Shown: one piece after another, positions 8,001 to 14,000 of the stretch
How the letters are laid out: each line of letters begins with the position of its first letter
Position numbering within the stretch: position 1 is the first letter of the stretch
Source of the DNA: Sacculina carcini
Lineage: Eukaryota; Arthropoda; Thecostraca; Sacculinidae
Direction of reading: 5' to 3'
Length of the DNA: 64,000 bases
NCBI GenBank assembly: GCA_916048095.2
Contig: OU696572.1
Span: forward strand, 3,128,862 to 3,192,861
Translations under genes and position numbers: made by a program
Notes under the pieces: generated by a model
The model's database searches: none
The model's input: only the letters and a program-made list of their open reading frames with translations
Told to the model about the DNA's origin: nothing

Positions 8001-11000
8001 TCTTTTGGATACGCTTCCGGTGCATGGGACCACCGCATGGTGGTAATAGTGATTGCACTCTTCCCATCGCTCTGTCACTGGATATGCCTGTAATTAATAA
8101 CAATAACCCAAACGATGAATATCCTTCGAGGCACGGAGCCAATCACTTGCCTGAGACTCAGCGGACGACATGGGCTGGTCACCGTCGGCGTCCAATTGGC
8201 TGTCGTCTTTTGGCGGCTGAGCCAATCGGCGACGAGTAGGCGGAGCCTGTTCGGCGGGCGAGCGACGCTGATTGGCTGAGCGCTTGATGGCGCCGCTAGC
8301 CTCGTGTTCATTGGATACATTCAATTGTGAGCCGCTGGTGTCTTTCAAAGCAAACATGGACACACACACACACACAAACAGATTCAACCATACATTCTAG
8401 TATAAACTGAAAATATCACATAAAATTGTCGGAATATTCTTAATATAAACCCACTAGATATAAAGAGGCATGGGCGATTAGACAATCCGTCATTTTCAAA
8501 CGACAATATAGCTTAAAATAAGCAGAACCGATAGCATACACACGCACACACAAGTAAACACACACAAAACACAGACACAAACACACACACACCTAGAGAT
8601 GCGACCTCAAAAAAACCGACGGTTTTTTATATAAAAATATCATTTTTGCCAAAAAAAACTCGACAAAAAAACTCGACCAAAAAAACACGATTTCTTGTTT
8701 TTTTAAGAGTCATGCAAATAATTCAAATTATGGAAATGACATATTTGGGATGTTAAATTAATTATCTTTATCAACAAATGAGTTATTTATGCTATTAGCG
8801 ACCCTATTAAATTGAATTATCACTAAATATGAACAATAAAAATGTTATAATGTGTCTGAAAGTCCTAATAGCATTGTTTGCACGGTACTGTGCACTTCTA
8901 TGTACAGTACAGTTTTACATTCAATCATTGAGTTAATCATTGTGTAAGAAAGCAGGGTTTGAGAACCGTTTTTATGCTAAAATCTGACACTGTTTTTAAA
9001 AAAACAACAGGTGACATAATTTTTTATTATGTTTTACATATTAACTTTTTCCTACCAGAAACAAACTACGTTGATTAAAATAAGTTTCATCATTTCATTC
9101 AGCAGCTCAATTATTTGCAAATATAAAAGCACAAACACTGCAAATATTTACACAAATACTACAAATATGCACACAAACTTAGTGTCCCTAATGAGACTAC
9201 GAATAAAAGCGGGTCGCATTATTCAGAGTGACAATCCTGACCAGAAAAACGGGGAATATTTTCGCGTAGGAAAAAAACGACTGAGGTAATATATTTAATG
9301 TACAAAAAGGTATTTGAACACAAATAACTACATCAAAGAAGCCACCATCCATAAAACCAGTTCTAAAAACAGATTACTAATAAAAAACCAATTAATTTGG
9401 TTCAACTTTCCATGATCTGCTGCCAATTTTTTTCTAAATCTCTACATCTACGAAAACCTTTTTAAAAAAAAATATTTTGAAAAAAGCATGGTTTAAAAAA
9501 CAGTTTAAGTCAAGTGGTTTAACCAGCAGCTTATACGTACCAGCAGGCTACTTGCTATACAAAAGGTATTTGAACGCACATCAATCAAATCTATCTTCAA
9601 TAGAGACTGTTATAGAAAGCATTGTTTCATTAAAAAGCGTTAGTTTAAATAACCGTTTGTCAAAATACTTGACCAACCAATTAACTTGTCTTGTTCTGCT
9701 GTCAACATTTTCTGAATCTGTACAATAATAAAACGAATTTAAAACCAATTTGAAAAACATCATTGCATTTTTTCATAAAACACATGGCTTCTTTAAAAAA
9801 ACACATGATTACTCAATGATTTTTTTTTCTTCTGACAAATTATTTCAAATATCCACATAATTAAAACCATCTCTAAAAACATGGGTTTTCTCAATGAAAA
9901 AAACCTAAACCACCGGACCCGGATGCACTTTCAAACAGTCTCCTGAGGTATTTATTGATAAATATTTTTGTTTTTTATACTATTATCAGATTATATTTGA
10001 AATAAGACACGTAAAGATGTACATAACGTCAATTAAACTCGATTCTATGTACTGAAGTCCAACATCCGATGATTATTGGGGCTAATTCTAAAAAACAAAA
10101 AACAAAACCTAAAAACATGTTTTTGCAAAAAACGCAACCAAAAAAACGCTTTTTTGCATCACTACACACACCTATACAACCTACACATACATATATATAC
10201 ACGCACGATAAAATAATAGTGTATATCAGTGTTTCTAAATCAGTGGGGAATTCGCCACTGGTGGGGAATGGAAGAGTTGTCAAGTGGGAAGCTAAAAGTC
10301 GGACAGAACAGGACACCTATGTGTTTTTTATCAATTCAAATTCGTTTATAATTGTTTCTAATGATCTCTTGATATTTACTTTGATGCAACAACTGAATTT
10401 ATCAGCGCTGTTGTGGAAAATGAAGAGATGTCATATTGTAGCGCGGTGAATCAGCAAGGCACCGCTGCCTACAACCGCTGCCAAATTGTACCTACAACGT
10501 GGGTACTCATGTGAGCGTTTCCACATCGTCTTTCAAAAATTCGACCAAGGCTCTACATTTGACAATTACTTATCAGAGTTTGATTAGTTATGCCATAACC
10601 GGATCGTGCATTATCGCAGCTGACAGTTCAACTCTTATTCCGAACCAGGTTCGGTTTCAATGTCGAGGGTGCACACAATTGGTGAATAAACATCCCATCC
10701 ATGTTGGTCTTGAGGCTCCTAAGCCCACTCAAGAGCTTCCGATTCCTCAGATTGTGAGTCTGAGATTGGTCAACCAGAAAACAAAGCCGAATAAGTTACT
10801 TGGGGCATGTTTGGGTGCAGTCCTAGCCAGAGCGGATAGAAAACAAGGTACAATTACTCAAGTCATGAAGGGTGTGGCGAAGACAGACTTCCTTGACTCG
10901 AAGAAGCTGCCAGTCAATCTCAACCATGTGCGGAAATGTGACCTCAGAACATTGATTAGCTCGGTGATTGTTCACTCTGGAGTTTTGAAACTATTGACTA

Positions 11001-14000
11001 AGAGCAGAACAAAGTACTCGGAGACTAGCCTTTCTTGGTTCCCGCTAACCACTCATTACCTACGACAGACCGGGTTACTCAAACGTGTAGTTGAGATCTT
11101 CAATGATCCTATCTCGGTGCATAAGAGATGAGAGAAAATGCGTGTCCTACATCACAAAAAATATTTTGCGATTTGCAGGATATCCGGATTTTCAATGGAT
11201 TCTGACTGATTAGTCGATATTCACGACCTTGCGGTTATCGTCAGCCGTGCAAATGCAGGGAAAGGTCCATTACACTTCTTCCCGATTCTGAGAAATAATG
11301 ACCTGGTTTATCACCCGTCAGAGAACAAGGTTGAAGACAGTGTGACCAATCAGAAGTGCAGCGCCACACGAGACTGGATCGAAGCAGTTACCGTGAGTGA
11401 TCCTGCCAGAATGGGAATACTTCGGAGAAAGATAGTAACTGTCTCCAACGTGTTAAGTCAATCATCAGTTTACTTTGAAAAGACTGCATCTGACTCACTT
11501 CGTGAAGTCTCTCGTCATATAGTTCATCGATTGAACCTTCCGTCACTAACTTGTCCGATAGCTGTTGTTGGGACATGCCTCCAGAAAAGATTGGTGGAAA
11601 AGTTCTTTGATGACGAATCTCATCTAGTGTATCGACCGATATTCAGGATGACTGCATCTGCAAATAAGTTCATCGAAGTGTTGTCTACGTCGTTCCGTAA
11701 CTTCCGTGCAGAATCAATCTTTTGTTTAGCAGAAGGAGCTGGTGGAGTTGCTGTTACTCTAGCTCACATGTATCCACTTGCAAGATTGTTCTACAGTTCA
11801 TTGATTGACGAACCAGATATGATGTTAACAGAGAAAAACCCAGAATATGACACTCCTCTCGGTTTGATCGGCGAGCCGTGTAGGTAAATGTCTGAACCCA
11901 CAATAATACAGCACTCGACAGGGGACATCACCGACATTTCACTAATGAAGACTTTAGAGATCTACATGCAGCCAGGATGCGAGATTTTGATGACTCTTGA
12001 TCCGCAAAGCTTGGACGAGTTAGACTACAATTTGATTCTGCGAAATTTGTTGTCGATGCTATACAGATTGAAGAGGAAATGTACCATTGAGGTTCTGTTA
12101 AAAATATATTGGGATTATAGGGGGACTCCATTTTTCTGGGACGAGGTTGAGATTCCCACGTTGAACATGACTGTCTACAAGCCGTTGGCGGTTTCCCCAT
12201 GCAACTCTGAATACCTTCTCGGGTTCACCACGTGTGCCCAAGGAAACCTACTTGTTACCAATAATATGTTGTATGATGCTTTTGATACCGCTCAAATGGA
12301 AAGATTGAGTTCATCTATGCTGAACCGATCGAGTTTGATACCTGGTTTCGATTTGTCCAGTCTCATATGGGGTGTTTGTCATCATCACATATGATCCATG
12401 ACTGGTTAGGAAGTCGCAATCAAGGATGTTTATGCCAGGTGCCACAAGAAAAGGTTTCAACAATTGTCGCAGAACTACTCGATACCAGAGACAGGTCTGA
12501 GTTTTTGCCTGTCTTGCTTGCCCAAGACCAATCTGGCACCGGTATGCATCGAGGGCGGGTAGTAACCGAAAGATTGGTGATCTATAAATCGATACATGAT
12601 GTATCCAGGGGCAAAATCGGGAACTTCAGAGACTATACATTCTCGAGTGAATTTCCTGAGTTTGTGGACAATGGAGGATTGACTATGACTATGATATCAA
12701 CTAAGAGGTATCAAGTGGATGAGTCGACAAGGCCAAAAAGTTTATTACATGACGTATCCATGGATGACCCGTGTATGTCGCTGTAAGTCACAAGTAATTG
12801 CATTTGATGTGGGAGAAGGCAGTACACACGTTGTTTTGAATATGTTCGATGCATGATCCGATATATCTAGTAGGACCTTGATTATATTTTACATACATTT
12901 TAAAGCTGATTCCATATAGAAAAAAATGTGTAGCGCGGTGAATCAGCAAGACACCGCTGCCTACACACCACGTGGCTGCACTCTCTCCACTCTCCAGACA
13001 GCTCACGCCTGCTGGCTTGCAGGAACATCGCGCCACTGGGCGTGGCTGCGAGCGTTTGCGGACGTTTCCGCCAGGCGCCGCCACGGGCACTGGCTGAGGC
13101 ATCTGGCGTGTTTGTCTGTGTGTGTGTGTGTGTGTGTATGTGGGCATTCATCAGTCGTCAAATAAACTCTCGCCAGAGTACTTGTGTTTCGCCAGTGTAG
13201 CGAGGCGGCACAATTACTCACTTCTCAGCATTGCGCCGCCTAACGACTCCGCTACAATATTAAGAAGTGGGGAATCAGAGAAAAAAGGTTGAGAACCACT
13301 GGTGTAGACAGATAGTGTGGAAAATTATCCACACAATGAATGCGCACGTCACCAGACAGACATACACCTCACCAGACGGGCATACATACAAAAACATACA
13401 CACACACAAGCACACAGACAGGCCGCCAGACAAGCAAAGAGAGACAAACAAATAAATAAATAGCCGGAAAAAGATACATGCACAGGCACAAGGACAGATA
13501 GACAGACAGACACACAGACACACAAACACGCAGAGACAGACAGACACACACACAGAAACAGACAAACAAACACACAGAGACACACAGACACACACAAACA
13601 CACACGCAGAGACACACAGACACACAAGCAGACAGACACACAGACACACACACAGAGACAAACAGACACACACGCAGAGACACACAGACACACACGCAGA
13701 AACAGACAGACACACAGACACACACAGAGACAGACAGACACACGCAGAGACAGACAGACACACAGATAGACAGACAGACACACAGACACACACGCAGAAA
13801 CAGACAAACACACACGCAGACACACACACACAGAGACACACAGACACACACGCAGAGACAAACAGACACACACGCAGAGACACACAGACACACAAGCAGA
13901 CAGACACACAGACACACACAGAGACAGACACACAGATAGACAGACAGACACACAGACACACCCACCAGCGCGGCGCTTGCGTCTACGCGGCGCCGACGAG

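Follow-up and report, generated by a model that had tools for sequence, protein, structure and literature searches.

How RNA viruses that lack reverse transcriptase have passed genes into animal genomes has often been inferred from nearby repeats. Several systems, given here as excerpts of the cited sources present them, are close to the locus described below. In recombinants of lymphocytic choriomeningitis virus and intracisternal A-particle elements (LCMV-IAP; Geuking et al. 2009, as told in PMC3205384), arenavirus sequence was joined to a long terminal repeat (LTR) retrotransposon and integrated. An endogenous viral element from NS2A of cell fusing agent virus (CFAV) in Aag2 cells is surrounded by the LTRs and gag of a Ty3-gypsy element (PMC6797480), and AeBunya1 lies within a full-length Pao-Bel element (PMC5497376). 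Cellular mRNAs have been subject to LTR-mediated retroposition (Tan et al. 2016, via PMC5408686), while endogenous bornavirus-like N elements (EBLN) and insertions of Borna disease virus (BDV) mRNA were attributed to LINE-1 (PMC3205384). The present locus is a 2.8-kb unit in Sacculina carcini (assembly GCA_916048095.2, contig OU696572.1), in which a fragment of a mononegavirus polymerase (L) gene lies between two parts of an LTR. It was studied in a window of 64,000 nucleotides, that is, the whole stretch of DNA analysed, and it is most probably the integrated DNA of a retrotransposon-virus chimera formed by a template switch onto an L mRNA.

Compared with these systems, the unit resembles LCMV-IAP in that non-retroviral RNA-virus sequence is joined to an LTR retrotransposon and integrated, whereas LCMV-IAP is experimental and concerns an arenavirus, and the unit appears to be a genomic fossil of a mononegavirus mRNA with a target-site duplication (TSD) and an empty-site reference. 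As in the CFAV-Ty3 and AeBunya1 cases, a viral fragment is found inside LTR retrotransposon sequence; those two retain retrotransposon coding sequence or a full-length transposable element, while the unit has only the LTR ends of a miniature element, with its right joint at a presumed viral poly(A) tract. Template switching between LTR retrotransposon RNA and a foreign mRNA would be common to the unit and to LTR-mediated retroposition, with cellular mRNA in the latter and viral mRNA together with a truncated 5' LTR in the former. The EBLN and BDV insertions share a TSD and presumably a mononegavirus mRNA and poly(A) with the unit, but are described in the available part of PMC3205384 by their TSDs and poly(A) without LTR ends, which the unit has. 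The literature surveyed, which consisted mainly of titles and beginnings of abstracts and covered few subscription journals, contained no mononegavirus mRNA captured by a miniature LTR element with both TSD and empty site. The mechanism has precedents in LCMV-IAP and CFAV-Ty3, and the unit is a new and unusually complete case. Within 2.8 kb the sequence shows a TSD with its empty-site reference, the LTR ends, a joint resembling a viral gene end, and a templated filler, and the model of a template switch onto viral mRNA can thus be examined at single-base level and put to the test in relatives. In all probability the unit is a well-preserved trace of a retrotransposon carrying an RNA-virus gene into a chromosome.

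The window (C3:3128862-3192861, where C with a number stands for a contig and L with a number for an excerpted genomic locus) belongs to a contig of 12.46 Mb, and the genome searched comprised 264 Mb in 43 contigs. The unit is flanked by a genomic repeat, a miniature inverted-repeat transposable element (MITE) which we take to be hAT-like judging from its ends. The sequence-only reading had claimed a 37-bp LTR start and a complete 328-bp LTR with TG...CA ends around the unit, ATAT on both sides, a split MITE with an unsplit relative at 58140-58391, and no gag or pol between the LTR parts. Each of these features was recovered (Table 1). The left piece matched bases 1-37 of the right LTR with 97.3% identity (E 2.8e-12, search within the window), and further copies of the LTR were present in the genome. 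When the flanks were joined with one ATAT kept (10137-10436 plus 13261-13330), they aligned to the unsplit MITE with 204 identities over 236 positions and two gaps, neither of which fell at the joint. At least 40 matches to the MITE were found in the genome (40 of 2844 candidates scored). The chance of a 4-bp match at two random cut points in this window is 0.93%. From the shared ATAT, the joined MITE without a gap at the joint and this chance figure, the unit is best read as one insertion with LTR ends. The immediate neighbours of the right LTR, AATG on the left and ATAT on the right, do not form a TSD of that LTR alone, which argues that it is not an independent solo-LTR insertion. Both outer ends of the unit match true LTR ends, the 4-bp duplication has the length typical of the family, and the flanks rejoin into one MITE. 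Four forward open reading frames (ORFs) covering the space between the LTR parts matched other L copies and no gag or pol family; shorter and antisense ORFs were outside this search. The 37-bp piece probably represents the start of the unique 3' region (U3), given the poly(A) signal at LTR base 233.

Table 1. Features of the unit and of its insertion site, in positions of the window
Feature	Coordinates	Strand	Basis or remark
Split MITE, left part	10243..10432	+	Joined-flank alignment and MITE genome search
Target-site duplication ATAT, left copy	10433..10436	.	4 bp, the typical length of the LTR family
Truncated 5' LTR, LTR bases 1-37	10437..10473	+	Sequence match to right LTR
Filler of 7 nt, ACCGCTG, copy of LTR bases 25-31, non-viral	10474..10480	+	
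Broken 3' part of mononegavirus L gene, capping-domain interior through methyltransferase (MTase) region to L stop codon	10481..12786	+	
Viral 3' untranslated region, ends CATATAG	12787..12919	+	Homology to copy L025 reaches 12846
Run of 7 A, presumed viral gene-end / poly(A) tract	12920..12926	+	
TG separating A-run and LTR	12927..12928	+	Equals the final bases (ATG) that precede regular 3' LTRs in the miniature family
Complete 3' LTR, 328 bp, TGTAGCG...CGCTACA	12929..13256	+	AATAAA poly(A) signal at 13161
Target-site duplication ATAT, right copy	13257..13260	.	
Split MITE, right part	13261..13300	+	
Unsplit MITE relative, empty-site reference	58154..58389	+	

The 328-bp repeat behaved as an LTR elsewhere in the genome too, with putative primer binding site (PBS), polypurine tract (PPT) and TSD, in agreement with the earlier proposal. 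At least 44 places matched it, its own included, most of them over the full length at 87-90% identity; as 40 of 456 candidates were scored, the copy number is a lower bound. Paired LTRs enclosed an internal region of 484-528 bp, and all five internal regions printed began with TTGGTGACCCC (TTGATGACCCC in one of them) right after the left LTR, the position of a PBS, and finished with a G-run and AGATG right before the right LTR, the position of a PPT. On contig C16 four LTRs stood head to tail around three such internal regions. These features are those of a miniature LTR retrotransposon like the terminal-repeat retrotransposons in miniature (TRIM), and the family is called TRIM here. Counting only elements or solo LTRs of which both outer flanks were seen, six out of eight had an exact 4-bp TSD (CTAT, ACCC, ACCT, AGGC, GTGT and AGGT), and solo LTRs with a 4-bp TSD were among them. 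Seven of 10 LTRs in one set with a single outer side stood outside this count, as did the inverted or nested copies L034, L037, L039 and C6:4657731; the outermost ends of L039 would match (ATTT), those of C6:4657731 would not (GTAT against TTGG). The PBS was assigned from its position and its conservation in the family, and is best regarded as putative. A pattern resembling the 3' end of a PBS-matching tRNA gave 15 matches in the genome, and ARAGORN called no tRNA in the two of them examined. No Rfam match was found in the window at gathering scores. Of these 15 places (L075, L076 and 13 others), the two that were read showed CCA followed by the apparent reversed end of another LTR family, as though strong-stop DNA had been inserted together with sequence of its primer tRNA. 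Within a TRIM-family LTR on C6 (L035:2761-3350) an insertion of 558 bp was found with a 9-10-bp repeat (ATCAGCAAG) at its edges.

The viral part was assigned to a mononegavirus L gene mainly through a relative on contig C23, the window pieces alone giving a weak assignment. One of the four window pieces matched the Pfam family Methyltrans_Mon_2nd, an MTase family, at 3.6e-5, just under the curated cut-off; one of the other three gave no family and two gave only unrelated families at E 0.2 or worse. Against the PDB, two of the four pieces were searched, and neither result was significant (rabies L at E 0.71 for one, nothing for the other). The C23 copy holds an unbroken ORF of 761 aa with Mononeg_RNA_pol (8.8e-58) and Mononeg_mRNAcap (2.9e-19), and at its end this ORF is homologous, with 86% identity, to the residues with which the viral part of the window copy begins. 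PDB matches of the ORF to 6ueb and to L chains of 1711-1756 residues were of similar strength (5e-34 to 4e-33); we take 6ueb to be rabies virus L and the shorter chains to be bornavirus L. A scan of IMG/VR with the C23 ORF, which covers the RNA-dependent RNA polymerase and capping regions, gave no relative, and a protein search with it gave none at E <= 0.001 among 7992 candidates scored, full-length L proteins being outside the length limits of that search. The window fragment runs from the interior of the capping domain to the L stop codon. It is broken by in-frame stops at 11129, 11207 and 11885 and by a frame change near 12331, where the homology switches frame. The L fragment had earlier been placed at 10474-12786. 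Its L-like nature held, through the Pfam MTase match and the domains of the C23 relative, while its limits had to be moved, as viral homology starts at 10481 and the viral part passes the stop codon to the end of the A-run at 12926.

At the right joint, the viral 3' untranslated region of the window closes with TTCCATATAGAAAAAAA, which is followed by TG and then by the LTR. The insert thus ends in seven A after CATATAG, and similar gene ends were seen at two other L copies: in L025, TTTTATGTAGAAAAACAATC comes after the L end, and in L026 ATGTAGAAAG...AACAATC stands upstream of the L start, while the own L end of L026, CATGTAAAACAACAATC, fits the pattern less well. From these three or four sites we infer that ATRTAGAAA closes a viral gene and that AACAATC opens one. 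The regular 3' LTRs with an upstream G-run seen here were preceded by GATG, and because of this the ATG/TG ahead of the LTR in the window is best read as retrotransposon sequence; in one irregular copy (C10:6081356) extra bases separate GATG from the LTR. An exact genome search with the right-junction string found the window only, and one more place was found with two mismatches, an LTR start on C11. Microsimilarity at this joint amounts to about one shared A. The viral fragment and the LTR have the same sense, as expected if a template of mRNA sense was copied during minus-strand synthesis.

At the left joint, LTR bases 1-37 are followed by ACCGCTG, which repeats LTR bases 25-31 and occurs within the unit only at 10461, 10474 and 12953, and then by viral CCAAATTG; the microsimilarity is CC. 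The filler is most simply explained as a local copy of LTR sequence made during formation of the joint, and both slippage of reverse transcriptase and break repair can give such a filler. In other L copies the sequence upstream of the position of 10481 continued in a shared form, for example as AGATCACAGTCA before and CCAAACTG after the corresponding point in L022. This continuation was observed in seven of eight places printed (three of them in an array on contig C1), the eighth lying at a locus edge. Viral sequence going on beyond the LTR borders elsewhere had been named as an argument against capture, and it does go on past the left break. However, these copies integrated separately, have diverged and are not duplicates of the unit, and the continuation therefore shows that the viral part is truncated here and does not refute the capture.

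The most probable course of events, in our opinion, would have begun with reverse transcription of a TRIM-family RNA by enzymes from an autonomous element. After copying the 3' LTR with the few preceding bases, the minus strand would have moved to a mononegavirus L mRNA at its poly(A) region and been extended on it as far as the interior of the capping domain. For the left end two origins are conceivable: either the minus strand jumped a second time, now to the U3 sequence of the plus-strand strong-stop DNA, and slipped at the joint to leave the 7-nt copy, or a complete 5' LTR formed in the normal way and later shrank to 37 bp. Integrase would have placed the product into the MITE, after which the insert decayed; no function is proposed for it. 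A switch of reverse transcriptase onto viral mRNA followed by integrase insertion was what the sequence-only reading had suggested, and it is supported by the LTR ends, the TSD, the empty site, the sense of the viral fragment and its gene-end-like A-run, the ATG ahead of the right LTR and the right-junction string unique to this place. In its simple form the model predicts two full LTRs, and the 5' LTR of 37 bp needs an extra step.

Several points weigh against this template-switch reading. The truncated 5' LTR is its weak point, as only 37 of 328 bp are present where two full LTRs would be looked for, and an aberrant strand transfer or a later deletion has to be assumed. PBS and G-rich PPT are both gone from the unit, the PPT region being reduced to ATG. 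An autonomous partner of the TRIM was not found: a search with the internal sequence gave at least 52 matches (40 of 80 candidates scored), places which were not inspected for a coding element. Two of the eight counted family elements, L033 and L038, had no TSD. The viral gene-end motif was derived from two other copies only, L025 and L026, and an exact match to ATATAGAAAAAAA occurred in three of 50 loci, each time at the window's own site. Double-strand-break repair could also have left the filler of the left joint, and the 37-bp direct repeat flanking the insert could instead be a long target duplication of the type made by long interspersed nuclear elements (LINEs).

The last of these points leads to the strongest rival, which we disfavour and consider improbable. 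A LINE-type reverse transcriptase would have put an L mRNA by target-primed reverse transcription into an existing solo LTR at base 37, duplicating bases 1-37 as its TSD. The A-run at the 3' end of the insert together with a 37-bp direct repeat on both sides would suit this, as would the solo LTRs with 4-bp TSD in the family and an ORF of LINE appearance with a reverse transcriptase domain (RVT_1) in the window, others there being alike by eye. The outer ATAT pair is compatible with both models. However, the insertion must strike the first tens of bases of an LTR, and the edge of the duplication must hit LTR base 1 by chance, for which we estimate a probability near 1 in 35, all duplication lengths from 5 to 40 bp being taken as equally probable. 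The 37-bp repeat starts exactly at LTR base 1, after an extra TG and not directly after the A-run, and the TG/ATG between A-run and LTR is unexplained by a LINE insertion, yet usual before regular TRIM 3' LTRs. Very unlikely, to our judgement, is the end-joining of viral cDNA into a broken TRIM element; the templated filler at the left joint would agree with it, but a right joint which lies at once at the viral gene end and at the pre-LTR bases is not predicted by end joining. Two unrelated neighbouring events, in which a solo LTR arrived independently of an old integration of L and the 37-bp piece is a leftover, are hardly credible although LTR elements do enter L copies in this genome (a young Ty3 element with identical 237-bp LTRs in the C16 copy), as this is already contradicted by the right LTR without its own TSD, by the duplication common to the two outer ends and by the outer flanks rejoining into one MITE at the empty site.

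Within the template-switch reading, a tentative and rather doubtful possibility is that the unit was made in one step. On reaching the 5' end of the viral template, the minus strand would have passed directly onto U3 of plus-strand strong-stop DNA, with the viral poly(A)/purine tract (TAGAAAAAAA) as a substitute PPT for priming the plus strand. If so, an integration-competent chimera could be made from a viral mRNA without PBS or PPT, with only LTR ends, and the capture of RNA-virus genes by LTR elements would be easier than the two-LTR model implies.

Further L copies were searched for in the genome. A DNA search with the L fragment gave 13 matches out of 13 candidates including the window, five of them in one tandem array on C1, and when one piece was searched as protein, 10 of 11 candidates matched, among them itself and two stretches of one C31 copy. 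A more distant copy on C29 was found with 44% identity in the protein search. Two loci on C22 were 98.7-99.3% identical over two stretches and were counted as one. Nonsynonymous divergence (dN) between the window copy and all seven oriented loci was 0.13-0.35, while synonymous divergence (dS) was not estimable (returned as -1, which we read as saturated). Because of these values in seven of seven comparisons, the L copies are separate captures, with the pattern of sequences diverged under selection as viruses. That they are duplicates of one integration was considered and rejected on the same values, with the exception of the C22 pair. A TRIM-family LTR beside viral sequence was found at none of 11 loci round other L copies (C23, C22, C16, C25, C31, C1 and C2; C29 not included), 10 of which match the L fragment of the window; in L031 a 105-bp LTR piece lies about 4.2 kb from viral sequence. 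The unit is the only such chimera among these loci, and the other L copies may have entered otherwise.

The C16 copy (L024 and L053; C16:1973001-1988000) is broken by a young Ty3-type element, whose 237-bp LTRs are 100% identical and which has an open frame of 1456 aa. This element was considered as a second capture and rejected: its LTRs are identical, a 5-bp repeat CGTGG is seen by eye at its edges, and the L copy continues on either side, all of which marks an ordinary insertion of a Ty3 element. The array on C1 (L027-L030; C1:1399001-1435000) consists of tandem units of about 4.8 kb and shorter, which repeat the 5' part of the L gene and are 99.7-100% identical; five of them hold a stretch homologous to window positions 10481-10617. 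On C25 (L025:4481-4621) the end of one L copy passes via TATGTAGAAAAACAATC directly into the start of another (ATGGCGACG...), which would reflect either end-to-end copying of two mRNAs or an unusual form of viral genome.

Two other repeats were observed in the window. Positions 29992-49927 hold a tandem series of long repeat copies that look like LINEs to the eye; identity among them reaches 97% over 7.8 kb, and they contain very long (CA)n runs. An LTR retroelement with LTRs of about 430 bp, 95% identical, was found at 17128-21930; its pol-like ORF carries DUF7047, and the relatives of this ORF among the matches listed (120 of 502) came from barnacles (Amphibalanus), crabs (Portunus), Macrobrachium and Trichuris.

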